From: a virus
Direction: 5' to 3' (one strand)
DNA: 64,000 bases
Virus record (IMG/VR): IMGVR_UViG_3300024054_000362
Span: 62,001-126,000 of that record
Part shown: positions 14,422 through 41,924 of the stretch, one piece after another
Position numbering within the stretch: the stretch's first letter is position 1
Layout of the letters: the number at the start of each line of letters is the position of its first letter
Notes under the pieces: generated by a model
What the model was told of the DNA's origin: nothing
Database searches by the model: none
Seen by the model: the letters and a program-made list of their open reading frames with translations, nothing else
Made by a program: the position numbers and the translations under genes

Positions 14422-14607
14422 CAGTCGCGCACGGCATCTTGCTCTCGACTTGGCGGTCGTGTTACGGCTGACACCGCGATCGATGAGTTAGGGGTTGGTC
14501 TGCACCGTACGTAACGCCTCGATTTGATTTGGGAAAATCTCCGTTGTCAGACAGCTCCTGTAGCGTTGATCGCGTTCAACCGACCGTTTCAGAAGGAGCA
14601 CGAGAGC

Positions 14608-18606: not shown

Positions 18607-19965
18607 TTACTGATCGTAGTAGTCGAAGCTCGCACGGGTGGTGATGCTCGGTGTGCCTTCAGGCGCGCCGTAGAGGAGTAGACGTGCCGGACCTGTCACG
18701 ATCAGCGGAACGGTGCGAGGCCGTGATGCTTGAATTCCGCCCCTACCGCCGACGCGGATGAAGTCGCTGATCTGAATGTCTGGGGCCGTACCACCAAGCG
18801 ACTTACTGCGCAATGTCACGATCGTACCGTTGGACGCGTTGCTGTTGTGGCCCGAGATGATCGAGACGCTACATTGTTTACCCGTCGCGACATAGTGCTG
18901 CGCCCACAGTGTTTGGTTGTCACCTGCGTTGACTGTCGCGAGCGTACCGCCACCGCCTGCCGTCGCGTTGAACAGCGTCAAGATACCCGCGTTCTGACCG
19001 CCCGAGCCGACGGAGATGACCTTGATCGACTCGATGTAGCAGATGTTCGTTGCGACGGTGTTGACCGCCGCGACGCCGTTGAGCGTGACATCTTCCGTGA
19101 ACGGACCTGTGAACGTCGCGGTGTAGTACGTGATCCGAACCTGGCGTGCACCGGTACCGGCGGCTGTATCATTTGCATTCGCCGACGAAATCGAACGTTG
19201 CGCGTTCGCGGCAGGCTCGTTGTACGTCGATGCACGGATCGGCACGTTGGTCGTCGCCGCGGTTGTGACCGTACCGAACTGTGTGCCTTTGATGTTCGTT
19301 GAATCGAGTGTTGTGAGCGTCGAGTTTTCAACCGCCGACGCACGAAGCTGACACGACGCCGTGCCTGATGTGAACGCCGACACACGCACGCGAACGTGCG
19401 AAGCGCCGCTCGACGCGAAGAACGATCGTGCCGTTGCCGTGTTCGCGGCACTAAATACCAAACTCGATGCTGTCAGATCTGTCGTCGGATCGAAAAAGAA
19501 CGTCGAGACCCACGTCGTACCGCCATCAAACGAAAGCTCGGCGACGAGCGTGCCGATCAACGTACCGGCCGAGAGTTGCATGCCCGCGCCTGCGAGACCC
19601 GCAAGCGCGACTTGCACCGCAACGTTGAGCGCGTTCAGGTTACCGGTCGACGTGACATCCGTGGCGCCCGTCGTACCGATGATCAACTTGCCGGTGGCGT
19701 CGGTCAGTAGCGTACGCGCGTTTGCGCCGTCGGAGCCCGCGACAAGTACTGGGTTGCCCGCGACCGCCGCGCCGCTCGCTGCCGCACCGACCGCCAACTG
19801 ACGCCCTGACGCGTCGAGGAGAATAAACCGCGCGTTCGTGCCGTCGGAACCTGCTGCGAGAAGCCCGCGTGTACCGACCGGAATCGCGACACCGTTGGCG
19901 ACAGCCAGCTCGACCCCGTTGGAGTCGTAGAGCATGACGTCGGGTGTCTGATCGGTAACCGGCAT
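18607..19965 (-). CDS. spike-like structural protein (paralogue 2) with N-terminal repeats
   Basis: 452 residues. The N-terminal part has two copies of a beta unit: VAGSDGxNARxLLxDAxGxxL, broken here as consensus. A middle beta domain (EGxSFDGGTTWVSTFFFDP-like) follows. The C-terminal 250 residues are homologous to the 17845 protein (NAQRSISSANANDTAAGTGA). Likely a larger spike subunit made by duplication and addition of domains. Start ATG 19965; weak ribosome site. Confidence 0.7.
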   Translation of the reverse strand: MPVTDQTPDVMLYDSNGVELAVANGVAIPVGTRGLLAAGSDGTNARFILLDASGRQLAVGAAASGAAVAGNPVLVAGSDGANARTLLTDATGKLIIGTTGATDVTSTGNLNALNVAVQVALAGLAGAGMQLSAGTLIGTLVAELSFDGGTTWVSTFFFDPTTDLTASSLVFSAANTATARSFFASSGASHVRVRVSAFTSGTASCQLRASAVENSTLTTLDSTNIKGTQFGTVTTAATTNVPIRASTYNEPAANAQRSISSANANDTAAGTGARQVRITYYTATFTGPFTEDVTLNGVAAVNTVATNICYIESIKVISVGSGGQNAGILTLFNATAGGGGTLATVNAGDNQTLWAQHYVATGKQCSVSIISGHNSNASNGTIVTLRSKSLGGTAPDIQISDFIRVGGRGGIQASRPRTVPLIVTGPARLLLYGAPEGTPSITTRASFDYYDQ

Positions 19966-30733: not shown

Positions 30734-31396
30734 ATGAGTCTCACCCAAGATACGGACTTCAAGTGCGTCGACAAAGCGGGCAACCCGCTGAACTTCTGCT
30801 TCGGGATCGGTGCAGCAAACCACACGCTGCTTCAGAAGTTGCAACAAGCAGTCAACCGGCTCGCGAACCTCGGTGGATTCCCCGCGTTGACCGTCGACGG
30901 TTTTATCGGACCTGATACGGTGGCTGCCGTTCGAAAGGTGCTCTTCATCGGCCCCGTAGGCAGCCTTCCTTGGACCAAGGAGACAATCTCCAACAACGCG
31001 TCTGAAGTCATCGACGGGTTGAACAGTATCGCCGCCGATCTTCAAACCAGGGGCGACGTACTAGCGCCCGAGGGTACGCCCGTCGAGCCGACCATCCAGA
31101 CGATGGCGACGTCGACCGGTATTCCTCAAGAAAGCGCAGCTGACATCATCGCCGCCGCACTCGGACCGGCACCGAGTAACCAAAAAACCTTCAAGCTCCT
31201 GCCGTGGATCTTGGGTGGCTTGGCGGTCGTCGCCGCTGTCGGCGTCGGCGGCTACTTCTACCACCGCCACAAGGCGCGTCAGCAACTCGGATGGGGCGAC
31301 GACGATGATTTCGGAGACGATGATCTCGGAAACGATGATCTCGGCGACGACGATCTCGGCGACAACGACTTCGACGGCGGTAGCGAGGAGCTATAG
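30734..31396 (+). CDS. PG-binding-like membrane protein, tandem copy 1
   Basis: 220 residues. N-terminus has DFKC and FCFGIG, then a peptidoglycan-binding-like helix bundle at about 30-70 (LQKLQQAVNRLANLGGF, LTVDGFIGPDTVAAVRK). A helical spacer, one membrane segment (KLLPWILGGLAVVAAVGVGG inside, about 157-180) and an acidic tail of repeated DDDLG units follow. Copies 2 and 3 come directly after. Family knowledge: such domains bind cell-wall peptidoglycan. Inferred role: virion membrane protein contacting the wall during DNA entry. Confidence 0.8.
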   Translation: MSLTQDTDFKCVDKAGNPLNFCFGIGAANHTLLQKLQQAVNRLANLGGFPALTVDGFIGPDTVAAVRKVLFIGPVGSLPWTKETISNNASEVIDGLNSIAADLQTRGDVLAPEGTPVEPTIQTMATSTGIPQESAADIIAAALGPAPSNQKTFKLLPWILGGLAVVAAVGVGGYFYHRHKARQQLGWGDDDDFGDDDLGNDDLGDDDLGDNDFDGGSEEL

Positions 31397-31398
31397 CC

Positions 31399-32037
31399 GT
31401 GAGTCTTCTCCCCGAGCAGTTCCCACTTCCCGACAGTCTTGTCCCTGGAACAGACTTCAAGTGCGCCGATCGTGCCGGGACGCCGCTGAACTTCTGTTTC
31501 GGAATCGGCGCCGGCAACCACGCGACCCTTCAACTCCTACAGCAGGCCATCAACCAGTTCTCGGTTCTGAAGGGCTTCGCACAGCTCACCGTCGACGGTT
31601 TTGTTGGTACCAACACCGTCAACGCCGTACAAGCCATCCTCCCGATCGATCCGCCATGGACCAAGGAGCAAGTCACGGAACGTGCAACGGGCCTGTTGAT
31701 ACAGATCGACAACGCTGCAAGGCAGCTAGAACAACAAGGACACACGCTCGCATCAATCGGCGAGCCCGTCCCTCCAGCACAGAGCGTGGCGTCGACCGGG
31801 GTTCCGTCGTCGACCGGCAGTGAAATCGTCGCTGCGACGACAGCACCGACAACCGCAGCAGGCATCGCTGCCGTTGTCCCAAAGTCGAAGTTGCTACCGT
31901 GGATCCTCGGCGGTCTCGCTGTTGTCGCCGCGGTCGGCGTCGGCGGTTTCTTCTATCATCGAAACAGACTCCTGAAACAGGCGGGATGGGGTGACTACGA
32001 CGACGCTGACGACCTCGGCGCCGACGAGGAGGACTGA
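31399..32037 (+). CDS. PG-binding-like membrane protein, tandem copy 2
   Basis: 212 residues from GTG 31399, 2 nt after copy 1. Same order: DFKCADRAGTPLNFCFGIG, helix bundle with LTVDGFVGTNTVNAVQA, a spacer, the nearly identical membrane segment KLLPWILGGLAVVAAVGVGG, then an acidic tail (DDADDLGADEED). Closest to copy 1; clearly a tandem duplication. Confidence 0.8.
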   Translation: MSLLPEQFPLPDSLVPGTDFKCADRAGTPLNFCFGIGAGNHATLQLLQQAINQFSVLKGFAQLTVDGFVGTNTVNAVQAILPIDPPWTKEQVTERATGLLIQIDNAARQLEQQGHTLASIGEPVPPAQSVASTGVPSSTGSEIVAATTAPTTAAGIAAVVPKSKLLPWILGGLAVVAAVGVGGFFYHRNRLLKQAGWGDYDDADDLGADEED

Positions 32038-32040
32038 TCC

Positions 32041-32775
32041 ATGTGGGGTGCTGCGCTCACACAAAACGTCGACTTCAACTGCAACAAGGACATCTGCTTT
32101 GGAATCGGTCCCGTCCACGACAAGTACAAGCTGTTTCAGCAAACGCTGAACCGCTTCGCACCGCTCGGGAAGGGTTTCAAGCCGCTCGATGTCGACGGAT
32201 TCATCGGAGATCTAACCGTCGCTGCCGCAAACGCGGCTGCTGAAGTTGCAACACTACCGTCACCAGGTCTCACGCACGAAGCCGTCGCAGCCAGCGTCGA
32301 CGACTTCACGTCGCAGCTGTCGAGTATCATCGACATGCTTGTCACGGCAGGCGTGATCGCGCCGATCAACGATGCCGAACGCGCCAAGATCGCGGCCACC
32401 GATACCGACCTCACCAAGCCACCGCCGGCTGCTGCAACCGCCATCGTCGGCACATCGACGCCGTCGCCTGAGATCGACGGTGTGATCCAACAGACCGTTG
32501 CCGCGTGTCGTGCCAGTCGTTCGAGTCCTGCGTGTACCCGCGCCAAGACGATGTGCAAGAGCATCCGCGGGACGCCCCAGGCTTCGCTCGCCGAAGTCAA
32601 AGAAATCTGCGACTCGACTTCGACACCGCTCTGGGTGTTCCTGCTCGCAGGAGGCCTCGGCGTAGGCGCCATCATCGGAATCGGCGTCCTCCACGCCCGT
32701 CGACGTCGCGCCGCCGAAGCCGTGGCACTCGGGAACGATGCACGTCCGGCCCGTCGGTATAAGCGCGTTCGTTGA
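32041..32775 (+). CDS. PG-binding-like membrane protein, tandem copy 3
   Basis: 244 residues. DFNC, ICFGIG and the bundle with LDVDGFIGDLTVAAANA mark it as the diverged third copy. It has an extra Cys-containing helical segment (about 155-195) before the membrane segment (about 200-220), and a basic instead of acidic tail (RRRRAAEAV, ARRYKRVR). The opposite tail charge suggests a different partner on the inner side. Confidence 0.8.
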   Translation: MWGAALTQNVDFNCNKDICFGIGPVHDKYKLFQQTLNRFAPLGKGFKPLDVDGFIGDLTVAAANAAAEVATLPSPGLTHEAVAASVDDFTSQLSSIIDMLVTAGVIAPINDAERAKIAATDTDLTKPPPAAATAIVGTSTPSPEIDGVIQQTVAACRASRSSPACTRAKTMCKSIRGTPQASLAEVKEICDSTSTPLWVFLLAGGLGVGAIIGIGVLHARRRRAAEAVALGNDARPARRYKRVR

Positions 32776-35852: not shown

Positions 35853-36016
35853 CGGGACCTGCGCTCCTTCTGAACGACGTCGTACGCCGCCTCGGCCTGT
35901 GCGTACGTCGTGACGATGCCCTCGCGAGCTTGGGTCGCGATGATGGTCGGGACCATCAACCTTCGACGAAGAACCGGATCGGCCAAGATCGCCCGGATAT
36001 CGACTCGTCTCAGCAT
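35849..36016 (-). CDS. small helical protein
   Basis: 55 residues from ATG 36016, overlapping the upstream stop by 7 nt. Two helices (VDIRAILADPVLRRRLMVPT, YAQAEAAYDVVQKE). Unknown function. Confidence 0.65.
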   Translation of the reverse strand: MLRRVDIRAILADPVLRRRLMVPTIIATQAREGIVTTYAQAEAAYDVVQKERRSR

Positions 36017-36441
36017 GGCCAACCCTCCGTTTCGAGATGGTGCGCCCACGCGCCTGCCTCGTAGTCTTCGAGCTGATCGGCGAACCACTGTCGCTGCCGC
36101 TCGTCGCCGTTGTGGGCGGAACGCCAAGACTCCATCCGCTCGTTGTAGTTGCGATAGCCGTCATGGAAGGCGGTCGACGGAAAGCCGCCTGTGATGTGCT
36201 CGAACTTCCCGATCAGGAAGTCGTAGGCGAGCTGCTCGACGTACGGGTTCAGCGACTCGCCGAACGGCAGCAGCGCGAAGCAATGATCGCAGTGAAACGT
36301 CCGCGCGGTTTTGAAATCGCGCCGCATGTGGCACTTGTACCCGTTGGCGTCCTGCCAGTGACGTCCGGGCGGATGCTCGCAGCGTTTCTGGAGAGCCTTG
36401 AGCTTCCGCAGGGCCTTCGCTCGACGTTCATCTTCGGTCAT
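36010..36441 (-). CDS. phage zinc-binding hypothetical protein
   Basis: 143 residues. Basic helix at the start, then C20..H..H (RCEHPPGRHW), C37..H38, and FHCDHCFALLPFG, a zinc-ribbon pattern. The rest is aromatic-rich helix (YNERMESWRSAH, QRQWFADQLEDYEAGAW). Similar zinc proteins are common in phage early regions. Confidence 0.7.
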   Translation of the reverse strand: MTEDERRAKALRKLKALQKRCEHPPGRHWQDANGYKCHMRRDFKTARTFHCDHCFALLPFGESLNPYVEQLAYDFLIGKFEHITGGFPSTAFHDGYRNYNERMESWRSAHNGDERQRQWFADQLEDYEAGAWAHHLETEGWPC

Positions 36442-36444
36442 GGG

Positions 36445-36822
36445 CTAGTCCTTCCCCATCACGTCGACGTGGAAGCGGCCAGCACTGTACGCTGCCTTGA
36501 GCGCTCGCGCGTGGCCGTTGCGGTACTGCGTCGCGAGCAGCGCCACCAGCTCGTTCCGTGACCGCGGCTTGTTGCCGATCATGGCATCGGTGACGCCGAT
36601 CTTCGCCGCCATGTTGAGCTGCTCGCACCATTCGTGCGGCGAACAGTTGACGAGATCGACGCGCTTGAAGGTGATGCTCTTCGGTTCATTCGACGAGATC
36701 TCATCGATGGTGAACGGCCCGCCAGACGTGTACTGCAAGAGGCCGAGACCGTCGATCGAGACCTGGCAGGAGTTGCGGCCCTGACCTGCGTGGATTCGCG
36801 CTGCGAGCTTGGGAGACTTCAT
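36445..36822 (-). CDS. hypothetical early protein
   Basis: 125 residues from ATG 36822 (GGAAGG upstream). Beta-rich first half (CQVSIDGLGLLQYTSGGPF), helical second half (EWCEQLNMAAKIGVTDAMIG). First gene of the leftward operon 36822-35616, divergent from the SNF2 gene and sharing with it an inverted-repeat promoter region. Confidence 0.65.
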   Translation of the reverse strand: MKSPKLAARIHAGQGRNSCQVSIDGLGLLQYTSGGPFTIDEISSNEPKSITFKRVDLVNCSPHEWCEQLNMAAKIGVTDAMIGNKPRSRNELVALLATQYRNGHARALKAAYSAGRFHVDVMGKD

Positions 36823-37257
36823 CGGGGTGTTTCCTTCCGTTCGTTCGCTGGTTCGCTTGACAGACGTATGAATAGGGCCGGCTATTCGACAAAGCAAGAG
36901 CTAGTTGATAAGAAAGCAAAACCACGAGTGAAAGTCAGGCTGATCTGTCGATAGTCCCGGCGATCTGCCGACAGATCCGGCGATCGACGTGCTGTCGTTT
37001 GAGGGCGGATCCAGGCTTGGATCGCTGCAGATCCGCCCCTGATTCACGGGCTATTGACGTAAATTCACATAGTTACGCGAGTCCGCAAGCTCCCGCGCGA
37101 GGTCTCTCGCGCGCAGAAAGGATACAGGCTTCCCTGAGCTTAAAGACCTGATGAAGAAGCTGGTTTTTGGAGCCTCCAAAACCCCTTGAAATTACGCATA
37201 TTTAGCAAATAGCTCTTGCTTTGCGAATAAACCGGCCGTATCAACCGTCCTACAGAC
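36823..37257. promoter_or_regulatory. divergent control region with long inverted repeat
   Basis: 435 bp without a gene. Outer arms at 36876-36903 and 37210-37237 form a 28-bp nearly perfect inverted repeat sharing the 14-bp core CAAAGCAAGAGCTA, so each divergent operon has the same upstream sequence. Inside are CGCGCGAG/CTCGCGCG (37094-37113), TTTTGGAG/CTCCAAAA (37165-37181), and paired GCGGATC/GATCCGC repeats near 37006-37037. It is more A/T-rich than its surroundings. It looks like a paired early promoter-operator; an origin of replication is also possible. Confidence 0.65.
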
Positions 37258-39381
37258 ATGGCAACGAACAAACACCCCGGAAAGTGCGCGACCTGCCAGA
37301 CTCCCGTTCCTGCCGGTCAGGGCGAGCTGCGCATGGGCAACAAGGGCTGGATGGTGCTGTGCGCTGCGCACGGCTCGGTGTCTGCTGCTCAGGCAGTCGT
37401 CGCACTGGTCATCCGGGTGTGGCTGGCTGCCGGCCGCGTGTTCTGTGCGCCGGTTGCCCGGCTGAACGGCACCTTCGAGAAGTACGTCGCCATCACCCGC
37501 GAGGCGGGCTTCGGCTACAGCAAGGCGGACAACGCGCAGGTCGGCACGGTGGCTCAGGCGCTCGCGTTGGTGAACAACCTCCGTGCAGGAGGGTTCACGC
37601 CGGACGTCTCACCCGAGCTGTTGGTGCAGCTCCAGGCACGTGAAGCACAGGCCCGTCAAGAGGTCACCGATGCACAGGGTCGTGCTGTCGAAGTCAACGC
37701 GCGCCTCGCCGAGCGTGGCCTCGGACTGATGGCGTTCCAGAACATCGGCATCGAGTGGCTTGCGCCGCGCCAGAAGGCCCTACTCGGCGACGACATGGGC
37801 CTCGGCAAGACTGTTCAGGCACTCGCGGCGTCGCCCGTTGGTGCACCGATTGTCGTGGTGTGCCCTGCCGTCGCCAAGGGTGTGTGGCTCCGCGAGGTCT
37901 CGCGCTTCCGTCCTGATATCACGCCGGTCGTGCTGTCCGGTCGCAACTCGTTCCGCTGGGCGCAGCCAGGCGAGATGATCATCGTCAACTACGACATTCT
38001 CCCGGGCGAGCCGGCCACGGAGAAGGGCTACGCCGCCACGCTGTCGGCCGATCTCGCGAACGCGCCCGAGGGCACGGTGCTGATCGGCGACGAGGCCCAC
38101 ATGCTCAAGGAAAGCGACGCCAACCGCACGAGCCAGTTTCGCGCGCTGCGCCAGGCCGCGCTCGCTTCGAACGGTCGCGTGTGGCTGCTGACGGCGACGC
38201 CGATTCTGAATCGGCCGACGGAGCTGTGGGCGCTTCTGCAGGCGATGGACGCCGGTCGCGAAGTCTACGGCAGCTACGACAAGTTCAAGCGCCTGTGGAA
38301 CGCACAGCAGGGCCGTTACGGCACCGTGTGGGGCGATGCACAGCCCGAGGTCGCGTCGCTGCTCAAGAAAATCATGCTCCGCCGCATGAAGCGCGACGTG
38401 CTCACGCAGCTGCCGCCGAAGACGGTCCGCGACGTCGAAGTGAACGGCCTGTCCGATTCCGTTCGCCGTCTCTGTGACCAGGCGCTCGCCCAGCTGGAGG
38501 CCGACGGCGTCTCCATCGAGGAAGCGCTCCGCATCGCCTCCGAAACGGAGAACATCACGCGTCCGAGCATCCAGATCTGGTCCAAGGCGCGCGCCGCCCT
38601 CGCTACGGTCAAGCTCGGCGCCGCCCTCGACATGATCGAGGCCTTCGAGGACGCCGAGGAGCCCGTCGTCGTGTTCAGCGCGCACCGCGCGTCGGTGGAC
38701 ACGCTTGGCAAGCGTCCCGGTTGGGCGGCGATCACTGGTGACACGCCGGGCACGGAGCGTGAAGCGATCGCGGCACGCTTCCAGGCCGGTGAGCTGGCCG
38801 GTGTGGCTGCGACGATCAAGGCTGGCGGTGTTGCCATCACGCTGACTCGCGCCTCCAACGCGATCTTCATCGATGAGGAAGTCACCCCGGCACTCAACAA
38901 CCAGGCACAGGATCGCGTCTACCGCATCGGCCAGTCGCGCGGCGTGGTCATCACCCGCCTGGTTGCGACGCACGCACTCGATCGCCACACGGCGATGCTG
39001 CTCGATCGCAAGAGCGAGATCATCGCCAGCAGCGTGGACGCTGCCGTCGTCGGCGGCGATGAAGTCGTGTCGAGCGTCCCGACGGTCGACGTCGCCGCGA
39101 TCACCGCCGGCGCTGAGAAGGCGATCGCAGCCGAGATCGCCGTGCTCGAAGCCGAGCAGGCTGTCCCGGCGCCTGTCGCCCCGGCACTGTCGCCGACGGA
39201 CGCACGCATCGCCGTCATCAACCACGACCTGCGCGAGCTGAACATCGGCCGCACGATGCTCGCCGGCAATCGGGCGGCCTGCGAAGTGCTCGACGCACGC
39301 ATCGCCGAGTTGATGGCCGAGTACACCAAGCTCGCGTACGACGACATCGAGATCGTCGTCCCCGCCGAGTGCCCGTTTTGA
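37258..39381 (+). CDS. SNF2-family DNA helicase/translocase
   Basis: 707 residues. N-terminal zinc-like cluster (C10, C13, C35, H38). Then the SNF2 ATPase: Walker A LLGDDMGLGKT at about 175-185, DEAH at about 280, LLTATPILN, and the C-terminal helicase half with QAQDRVYRIGQS near 547. A C-terminal extension of about 110 residues is helical. Such phage proteins remodel DNA-protein complexes during replication or expression. First gene rightward from the control region; antisense reading is a shadow. Confidence 0.95.
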   Translation: MATNKHPGKCATCQTPVPAGQGELRMGNKGWMVLCAAHGSVSAAQAVVALVIRVWLAAGRVFCAPVARLNGTFEKYVAITREAGFGYSKADNAQVGTVAQALALVNNLRAGGFTPDVSPELLVQLQAREAQARQEVTDAQGRAVEVNARLAERGLGLMAFQNIGIEWLAPRQKALLGDDMGLGKTVQALAASPVGAPIVVVCPAVAKGVWLREVSRFRPDITPVVLSGRNSFRWAQPGEMIIVNYDILPGEPATEKGYAATLSADLANAPEGTVLIGDEAHMLKESDANRTSQFRALRQAALASNGRVWLLTATPILNRPTELWALLQAMDAGREVYGSYDKFKRLWNAQQGRYGTVWGDAQPEVASLLKKIMLRRMKRDVLTQLPPKTVRDVEVNGLSDSVRRLCDQALAQLEADGVSIEEALRIASETENITRPSIQIWSKARAALATVKLGAALDMIEAFEDAEEPVVVFSAHRASVDTLGKRPGWAAITGDTPGTEREAIAARFQAGELAGVAATIKAGGVAITLTRASNAIFIDEEVTPALNNQAQDRVYRIGQSRGVVITRLVATHALDRHTAMLLDRKSEIIASSVDAAVVGGDEVVSSVPTVDVAAITAGAEKAIAAEIAVLEAEQAVPAPVAPALSPTDARIAVINHDLRELNIGRTMLAGNRAACEVLDARIAELMAEYTKLAYDDIEIVVPAECPF

Positions 39382-39383
39382 TC

Positions 39384-39581
39384 ATGGACCGTTTCATCAT
39401 CGTACAGCGCACCGGTTTCTGTACGTACTTCCTGTACGCGTGGGACGGCGGTGAAGACCGATGGCTCGCGCACATCGACCTCGCGCAACAGTTCACCGCG
39501 AAGCAGGCGCGAAAGATCGTCAAGCAGATCAACGCGCGGTACCCCCTCGCACCGATCCCTGTCCACGTCCAACGCCTCTAG
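39384..39581 (+). CDS. small hypothetical protein
   Basis: 65 residues from ATG 39384. Beta strands (DRFIIVQRTGFCTYFLYAWD) then a helix (AKQARKIVKQINARY). It starts 2 nt after the helicase stop and is probably coupled. Unknown. Confidence 0.65.
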   Translation: MDRFIIVQRTGFCTYFLYAWDGGEDRWLAHIDLAQQFTAKQARKIVKQINARYPLAPIPVHVQRL

Positions 39582-39589
39582 GAGCCACC

Positions 39590-39964
39590 ATGCAGATTCA
39601 GAATCCTGACCTCGGCATGCCCGAAGGCCTCAGCGATAAGGGCCAGAAGGCTCACGCGATCATCGTCGAGTACCTCGTCGCCAACGGCCTCACCAGGACC
39701 GAGGTGCAAGCGTTCTACGCGCCCGCGGAGTGGTGCGAACGCGGTGAGGAGTACGGCCGCGACTCGCTGCTGGTCGTCATGTACGACGGCTGTGCTGCGC
39801 TGAAGACGGCCTTCTCGTTGGACTACTGCTACGAGGTTGTCGCGTCGAGGCGCGGCTATCCCGAGTGCTACGAGCACCACACGGCCATGCAGGCGAAGTT
39901 GGAAGAAGCTGGCCTGCGCGTCGAGGAATGCACCCGATGGTATGCCGCGATCTACGCGAACTAA
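39590..39964 (+). CDS. hypothetical acidic protein
   Basis: 124 residues from ATG 39590 with a CTAGGAG ribosome site. Helix-rich, with LIVVMYDG-like strand and many Tyr, Glu and Cys (WCERGEEYGRDSLLVVMYDG, YPECYEHHTAM). No family recognised. Confidence 0.7.
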   Translation: MQIQNPDLGMPEGLSDKGQKAHAIIVEYLVANGLTRTEVQAFYAPAEWCERGEEYGRDSLLVVMYDGCAALKTAFSLDYCYEVVASRRGYPECYEHHTAMQAKLEEAGLRVEECTRWYAAIYAN

Positions 39965-40040
39965 CATCGCGCAAGTTACTCTTGACTTGTTCGAATAACC
40001 AACGACACTGAAGCGTCTCACCGGCGAAGGCAGACACCCC
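39965..40040 (+). promoter_or_regulatory. promoter resembling the divergent control region
   Basis: TTACTCTTGACTTG, then TTCGAATAACC. It matches the repeat arms at 36876 and 37210 (CTCTTGC, TTTG, CGAATA). TTACTCTTGACTTG also occurs at 48773. Probably the same class of early promoter. Confidence 0.55.
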
Positions 40041-41924
40041 ATGAGCAAGTTTACCCCCGGCACCTACCGCCTGACCGTCGAGGTCGTGAACCCTACGCCC
40101 GATCGTCGCGTCAAGGACGATTGGCGCAAGCGCCCGACGGTCCCCAACGGGAAAATTTTCCGCGTGATCAGCATGTACTCGGGCATGGAGAACCCCGAGA
40201 CGGGTGAGGCGATCAGAATTGCCAAGCTCGTTCCCGTCGGAGATCGTTTCTGGATCCTACACGACGTCACGATCGACGGGCGCTACGAGCACAAGGAGCT
40301 GTGGACCGCGCCCGACGGTGCATGGCGCCTTGCCATGTGTCTCAATAACGACGCCAGCGACGATCGCGAAGAGGGTCTTGCAGACGTCGCGCTCGGGATC
40401 TTAAAGGGTACAAAAAAGCTCGTCGGGAACGAGAGCGGCATGAAGCTCGTCAAGGAGCACAAGAAGGTCACCGAGGCCTACTTGAAGCAGGTCGCGTTCA
40501 TCTACGCCGGCCGCATTCGCATCCGCGACAAGTGGTACCGCCCGATCGCGTACGTGACCAACTGCGGTCGACACGACATGCGCAACGATCACAACAAGCC
40601 TGTGTACCGTTGCCGGGACAACATGGGCTACGCCAACCGCGCGTGGCATTACGCCGGACCCGACGAAATCGTCTCCGAGAGCGCCACCTACCCCGACCCC
40701 GATCATCCCAGCATCAAGCGCGAGGTCATCTTCCGCGCCTGCGGCGACCGCCCCCACTGGCTGGACGTGCCGATCACCGAACAGGCCGCCGTCGACGAGT
40801 ACCTCGCGGCAGGACAGTTCCTTGAAGAGCGCAGCCACTCGATCATGTACCGCAACGAAGATGTGTCATCCGACGAGGAGACGCCGATCAATCGAAAGCG
40901 GATCCTCGCGCTCGGCGAGCGCGTCTCGCGCGAGCGCAAGGCCATCAAGAACGGCGACCTGACGCCGATGAACGCGCGCCTCAACGCTGAGCTGGAGCTA
41001 GCGCAGGTGCTCGACGAGGACGATCGTCCGATCGTGCAAGTGCTGCGCACCGACAAGGCGCCCAAGAAGAAGTCCGAAGCTCCGCTCGAAGAACATCTCG
41101 GTCCCGACACGCTCGCCTCCGTCCAGAAGAAGATCGTAGGTCTTCGTGAAGATTTGTACCTAGCCCGAGAGATCGACGACGAGGACGAGCGTGAGCTTGC
41201 CGAAGAACAAATCGAGCGCGAGTTGGAAGATCTGCGCGTGCGAGAACTTGCCGTGTTGCGCGAAGCGATTCTGAAACAGGCGAACGGCGATCTGATCGAT
41301 CTCACCTGGGACGCAGTCATGAAGACCCGCCCCCTCGACGGGGAGGAGGCTCGCATCCCTGCTGGCAGTATCAAGGTCCCGCGCGCGCCGTTCCTACACT
41401 GGGCGTTCGCTCGCATGAAGATGTTCGAGTCGCAACTCCCACCATGGAAATGCGTCTGCCCCTCAGGCATGAAGATGGCGATGGACGATCCGTTCCACAC
41501 CGACTGGGTCGTCGGTGGCGGTCTCGATCCACAGAACCGCGAACTACTCTACTACCCGGGTCCTGTTTGCGAAGCGTCGCTCAAACTCGCCCACGAGCTA
41601 CAGGACAAGTTCGATGCGCCTAGCGACGTGCACGTCCTCGTCGACGGTGCACCTGTCGGCGGCGCCATCCACCATGGCCGTAAGAAGAAACCGTGTCCCG
41701 ACGGTGCGATCGTCGTGCTCCCCAACCTGCATCCTGACTACGTCGAGACCATCGAGAACGCGGCGGCGGTCATCACCGAAGAAGGCGGCATGACGGCACA
41801 CCTCGCCCAGGTTGGTCGTGAGCGCGCTCTACCGATCGTCCGCATCGCGAACGCACGTACGCGCTTTCAGGAAGGCGACATGGTGGTGGTCAACACGGCG
41901 AACCGGACGGTAATGGGCGTATGA
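40041..41924 (+). CDS. large protein with C-terminal PEP-utiliser swivelling domain
   Basis: 627 residues. The last 120 residues follow the mobile phosphohistidine domain of PEP synthase and PPDK: AAAVITEEGGMTAHLAQVGR, then ALPIVRIANA and EGDMVVVNT, with His587 in the phosphohistidine position. The N-terminal 500 residues are unassigned: a beta region, a Cys/His part (CGRHDMRNDHNKPVYRC) and coiled-coil-rich acidic helices (about 280-410). No ATP-grasp or PEP-binding domain is evident, so the swivel may act as a carrier or processing element. Function unknown. Confidence 0.75.
   Translation: MSKFTPGTYRLTVEVVNPTPDRRVKDDWRKRPTVPNGKIFRVISMYSGMENPETGEAIRIAKLVPVGDRFWILHDVTIDGRYEHKELWTAPDGAWRLAMCLNNDASDDREEGLADVALGILKGTKKLVGNESGMKLVKEHKKVTEAYLKQVAFIYAGRIRIRDKWYRPIAYVTNCGRHDMRNDHNKPVYRCRDNMGYANRAWHYAGPDEIVSESATYPDPDHPSIKREVIFRACGDRPHWLDVPITEQAAVDEYLAAGQFLEERSHSIMYRNEDVSSDEETPINRKRILALGERVSRERKAIKNGDLTPMNARLNAELELAQVLDEDDRPIVQVLRTDKAPKKKSEAPLEEHLGPDTLASVQKKIVGLREDLYLAREIDDEDERELAEEQIERELEDLRVRELAVLREAILKQANGDLIDLTWDAVMKTRPLDGEEARIPAGSIKVPRAPFLHWAFARMKMFESQLPPWKCVCPSGMKMAMDDPFHTDWVVGGGLDPQNRELLYYPGPVCEASLKLAHELQDKFDAPSDVHVLVDGAPVGGAIHHGRKKKPCPDGAIVVLPNLHPDYVETIENAAAVITEEGGMTAHLAQVGRERALPIVRIANARTRFQEGDMVVVNTANRTVMGV

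Follow-up and report, generated by a model that had tools for sequence, protein, structure and literature searches.

A promoter-like module of three blocks with ECF-like spacing recurs ahead of genes in a jumbo-phage lineage

An inverted repeat between two diverging gene runs

The window analyzed here is a 64,000-nucleotide stretch of viral DNA, corresponding to positions 62001-126000 of the 221,422-bp record IMGVR_UViG_3300024054_000362 (hereafter G000). According to a simple gene caller of our own, two gene runs diverge within it. The leftward run comprises four genes on the minus strand and is headed by 36445..36822 (-), which encodes a 125-aa product with no family match. The rightward run comprises 31 genes on one strand, reaches 55248, and is headed by 37258..39381 (+), which encodes an SNF2-type DNA helicase of 707 aa. 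Further along, gene 40041..41924 (+) encodes a 627-aa protein with a C-terminal PEP-utiliser mobile domain; its closest protein relative among named phages belongs to Virus Rctr197k (38.5%). The DNA of 36000-41000 has no match among named phages, and family matches are absent for most of the tested genes of these genomes. Intergenic DNA makes up 12% of the window. Elsewhere, at 30734-32775, three consecutive ORFs look like tandem paralogues; each carries, by eye, an LNFCFGIG/ICFGIG-type motif near the N-terminus and a membrane-like stretch at the C-terminus.

Two related records were available for comparison. IMGVR_UViG_3300037483_000793 (G001; 195,792 bp) was reached through the helicase gene and IMGVR_UViG_3300019487_000032 (G002; 64,848 bp) by motif scan, and the helicases they encode show 64% and 62% identity, respectively, to the protein of the window. 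The leftward gene, used alone as a query against a viral contig database, returned no relatives; the first 41 aa of its product are similar (39%) to an interior segment of the leftward gene of G001.

A first-pass annotation of this DNA had described a 28-bp inverted repeat with one arm at the start of each of two divergent operons. Both parts of that description hold, with genes 36445-36822 and 37258-39381 each heading a run, and the repeat itself is slightly wider. Repeat search places a left arm at 36872..36911 (-), which contributes to the putative leftward promoter module, and a right arm at 37202..37241 (+), which contributes to the rightward one. The arms are 40 nt each, lie 290 nt apart, and are complementary at 31 of 40 positions (78%). 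No inverted 40-nt match within 36600-37500 is better, and the maximum over 200 dinucleotide shuffles was 30. In a BLAST search of the arm region against its own record, the only alignments besides the self-match were the reciprocal arms (85% over 40 nt, E 4.2e-5). The hexamer GGCCGG is common to both arms, as had been noticed, but sits in a spacer and outside the wider motif described below. Both G001 and G002 retain the two arms in the same place and orientation beside the helicase gene, and the DNA between the arms differs.

The same comparison bears on whether the repeat is a replication origin or the ends of a mobile unit, both of which the annotation had raised. Inverted arms do enclose palindromes here, one at 37162-37184 found by repeat search and another readable in the sequence at 37094-37113, and G+C is lower from arm to arm (52%) than in the window (61%), which speaks for such readings. 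The site shows no GC-skew switch, however, and neither palindrome is visible by eye in the intergenic regions of G001 and G002, although the arms are kept. Mobile ends are contradicted by the differing interior and by the remaining copies of the motif, most of which are single and stand ahead of other genes. We give these two readings hardly any credence.

Two further palindromes of the form GATC-N8-GATC lie between the arms (36962-36977 and 37008-37023), outside the module. This spacing occurs 33 times in the window (for example at 2137, 4972, 14406, 20580, 30649, 32778, 34535, 36962, and 37008), whereas the other spacings from 0 to 20 occur 1-17 times each. Fifteen of the 33 are intergenic, compared with the 12% of intergenic DNA, and in 11 of these 15 the inner pairs are complementary too, mostly as GATCGC-N4-GCGATC. 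Some of the module boxes of G001 and G002 are likewise closely preceded by palindromes of this kind. Judged by its pattern, GATC-N8-GATC appears to form a second family, of operators or hairpins.

A module of three blocks in three related records

Each arm is an outward-facing copy of a promoter-like module that this jumbo-phage lineage reuses ahead of many genes. The module consists of a 17-bp box (AAc/gTTACTCTTGCTTTG); the block GAATA, 1-3 nt after the box (overlapping it in one copy); and the block CGTC, 15 or 16 nt after GAATA. We propose GAATA and CGTC as -35 and -10 elements. On the left (-), the box AACTAGCTCTTGCTTTG occupies 36890..36906, GAATA 36883..36887, and CGTC, followed by T, 36863..36866, at a distance of 16 nt from GAATA (whole-module matrix score 47.9). 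On the right (+), the box AAATAGCTCTTGCTTTG occupies 37207..37223, GAATA 37225..37229, and CGTC, followed by C, 37246..37249 (score 42.5). The related sequence that had been noticed ahead of gene 40041 proves to be a third complete copy at 39973..40017 (+), with the box at 39973-39989, GAATA at 39993-39997, and CGTC at 40014-40017 (score 47.0).

Searches for the box were made without reference to GAATA or CGTC. A 17-mer taken from the arms, with up to three mismatches, matched seven times in G000 and nine times in G001 (reversed control, zero in both), and a degenerate 14-mer with up to one mismatch matched 13, 15, and four times in G000, G001, and G002 (control, zero). The forward strand of the records carries 28 of these 32 matches. 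Thirty of the 32 were inspected: in 16 sites the box is followed after 1-3 nt by GAATA or GAATG, which in one more site overlaps it by one base, and CGTC (once TGTC) follows 15-16 nt further on in these 17; GAATA and CGTC are missing from the other 13. Conversely, a search of the three records for TGAATA-N14..17-CGTC alone gave 11 matches (control, zero), ten of them previously found by the box; the eleventh, at G000:162654, has the box too.

Altogether there are 18 copies, seven in G000 (three of them in the window), eight in G001, and three in G002. Each lies 7-69 nt upstream of an ORF and faces it. The copies are partly non-independent, in that both arms and at least one further promoter are orthologous between records. 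A matrix built from the 18 scores them at 33-52, and across both strands of the window only the three known copies, all intergenic, exceed 12 (42-48). Two other GAATA-N-CGTC matches in the window, at 19821 (+) and 31124 (-), fall inside genes, have no box, and were set aside as chance. Information is concentrated in the box, GAATA, and CGTC (followed by T in 13 of 18), and the spacer holds little except for a T five bases ahead of CGTC in 12 of 18. Since GAATA and CGTC were used to select the copies, some of their near-invariance follows from the selection itself. What can nonetheless be read directly from the DNA is the module with its spacing, its place ahead of genes, and its conservation in three records.

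Candidate readers of the module

Spacing sets the three blocks apart. GAATA and CGTC are separated by 15 nt in six copies and by 16 nt in 12, and a search permitting 14-17 nt gave these two distances alone. The variance of this distance is 0.22, as against 1.10 for box to GAATA and 1.14 for box to CGTC. GAATA and CGTC therefore look like one rigid unit, with the box as a second. GAATA-N15/16-CGTC matches the -35/-10 layout of promoters read by ECF-type sigma factors. The SigW promoter is given as TGAAAC-N16,17-CGTA (PMC2375139), and CGTC at -13 to -10 is shown to matter for Tt-RpoE1 and proposed to be common to many ECF promoters (PMC3397946).

A sigma70-type reading appears to fit this layout less well. 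On that account the box would supply the -35 (TTGCTT/TTGACT) of phage promoters both with and without the other blocks, the -10 would be weak, and a phage co-factor would bind GAATA and CGTC as spacer and discriminator elements. The 13 box sites without GAATA and CGTC speak for it: there the box tends to coincide with the -35 of sigma70-like promoters, and -10 sequences are enriched 16-18 nt past TTGACT (mean score 4.18 versus 3.09, P 0.001, n = 13). Among the 18 copies, several, including the helicase promoters, have TACAAC or TATCAA at the -10 place, and there is weak enrichment of a sigma70-like -10 at 16-18 nt from the box (P 0.017); with one copy per orthologous promoter (13 non-redundant), the enrichment falls to P 0.07. 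About half of the 18 lack a -10-like hexamer at the expected place, no conserved -10 hexamer is visible when they are aligned on the box, and the tight distance is that from GAATA to CGTC, not from box to CGTC. We hold a sigma70 reading of all these sites to be unlikely but far from negligible. With -10 enrichment weak in the 18 copies and clear in the 13 other sites, one box apparently serves two promoter contexts. Two further intergenic CTCTYGACTTG boxes without GAATA or CGTC occur in the window at 14442 and 48774.

The box also occurs in inverted arrangements elsewhere. The promoter region at G000:50698 (L060) has a perfect box dyad, GTAGCTCTTGAC-TT-GTCAAGAGCTAC, and that at G001:100728 (L071) has the box plus a reverse box, which suggests that the box may be a regulator half-site. 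Such pairs would suit the module being purely an operator, bound by a phage regulator while the real promoters lie elsewhere. That view leaves aside two further blocks at promoter-like spacing, all oriented to the gene and close to the ATG, and we judge it very improbable.

Profile searches recovered no obvious sigma gene. Sigma region 2 (PF04542) gave no match in G000 and G001 at E <= 0.1, and PF08281 (sigma region 4) and TIGR02937 (the ECF model) gave five sub-threshold matches each in the three records, at seven distinct places at most. Those that were read proved to be other proteins: two are LuxR-type (L072, L073) and, by eye, others are integrase-like (L074), Xre-like (L075/L091), or HNH-like with a helix-turn-helix (L089). 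The LuxR-type pair (L072 in G000 near 148535, L073 in G001 near 99568) are proteins of 134-137 aa with a LuxR-type (GerE) helix-turn-helix and several cysteines and histidines in the N-terminal half. We regard this short regulator as a candidate for binding the box and as nothing firmer; by eye, the 220 nt ahead of each gene show no box.

The failure to recognise a sigma gene, together with a motif restricted to one phage lineage, would also fit a diverged phage-encoded RNA polymerase that recognizes the whole module, and diverged phage polymerases can escape Pfam models. Yet the Rpb1_2 domain of multisubunit RNA polymerases (PF00623) was found in none of the three records while its controls were detected, the D-x-DGD motif is absent from the proteins called in the window, and the variable spacing from box to GAATA would be unusual for a single rigid contact surface. 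A search for single-subunit polymerases (PF00940) was silent, as were its controls. Overall, we consider a phage polymerase improbable.

The explanation we favor, with moderate confidence, starts from an RNA polymerase carrying an ECF-type specificity factor, either the host's own or a phage-encoded one unrecognised by sequence, which would read GAATA as -35 and CGTC as -10 at a distance of 15-16 nt. A separate DNA-binding protein would occupy the adjacent upstream 17-bp box, at a distance that can shift by a few bases, and would activate or control the promoter. The pair of arms would then switch both diverging gene runs together, and many mRNAs would begin at the ATG or within a few bases of it. 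In proposing this we infer that the module is transcribed, that its blocks are assigned correctly to -35 and -10, and that both the activator and the leaderless mRNAs exist.

Leader length offers one comparison that touches indirectly on the last of these. In nine of the 18 copies the start that was chosen comes 7-14 nt after CGTCn, and in the other nine 17-69 nt after it; with CGTC as the -10, roughly half of the transcripts would be leaderless or nearly so. The register described in PMC3397946 would put the +1 of the window's helicase mRNA at about its ATG, 37258. Short or missing leaders predict weaker Shine-Dalgarno pairing, as found at the near starts, where the median pairing energy is -2.5 kcal/mol, compared with -5.9 at the far starts and -2.2 at random window sites. 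The difference between near and far starts (one-sided P 0.009) comes from one test made after inspection and hangs on the start choices: G000:164925 and G000:137266 were given their second possible ATG, and at G001:36675 and G002:42975 an ATG was preferred to an earlier GTG.

Distribution and relation to known promoters

Of 80 helicase loci scored, two are those of G001 and G002; on the module matrix, where the 18 training copies reach 33-52, no score above 20 was obtained for any of the other 78, more distant helicase-bearing viral loci. TGAATA-N14..17-CGTC is absent from Virus Rctr197k. One further record, IMGVR_UViG_3300044996_000468, repeats the sequence at G000:164925 and was excluded as non-independent. 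In a collection of bacterial and archaeal genomes the module pattern matched ten stretches, against about 30 expected from rough uniform-base arithmetic, and we therefore attribute these matches to chance. Three of the ten are one sequence shared within Mesorhizobium/Hyphomicrobiales. Two Enterovibrio species (L096, L105) share a box-GAATA-CGTC match about 30 nt ahead of the same gene, which is either chance or a cellular ECF promoter.

The suggestion of a phage-specific promoter class, made earlier from the repeat, is on sequence grounds well supported by the 18 copies in three related records, all facing a start codon 7-69 nt away, with bacterial matches at or below the chance level. We file the module as a putative class of this kind with ECF-like architecture, a description of its layout that makes no claim to membership among ECF promoters.

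Phage takeover of transcription is usually told via sigma70 promoters with phage co-factors, or via phage polymerases. If a phage with no recognisable sigma gene uses a compact, ECF-spaced module, that would indicate a further route. Titles and the opening lines of abstracts yielded no ECF-type phage promoter, which does not prove their absence from the literature. More tentatively, we suggest that the lineage may possess a regulon whose promoters have ECF architecture and a dedicated activator box upstream, whose mRNAs are mostly leaderless, and which is driven by a captured host ECF sigma factor or by a phage factor unlike known sigmas. The 18 sites form an exact list with which to fish out the missing factor, and the module allows promoters and operons to be called in genomes whose tested genes mostly lack family matches.

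Among known systems, the promoters of the multisubunit RNA polymerases of phiKZ and AR9 likewise carry a motif specific to one lineage of large-genome phages; here, however, the Rpb1_2 domain was not found in the records, and the module is built of three blocks, the first gap being variable. T4 middle promoters, with their MotA boxes, and CII-activated lambda promoters pair an activator box with a core element, and the module similarly sets a phage-wide upstream box next to core promoter elements. It differs from both in the sequences of box and core, in a core that looks ECF-like rather than sigma70, and in a distance from box to core that varies by up to 4 nt. In layout the module resembles ECF promoters such as those of Bacillus subtilis SigW and Thermoanaerobacter tengcongensis Tt-RpoE1 (tGTTAC ... 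CGTC), which share with it a GAA-type upstream block, an unconserved spacer of 15-16 nt, and a CGTC downstream block. To this arrangement the module adds a conserved 17-bp box directly upstream, and it would serve a phage.
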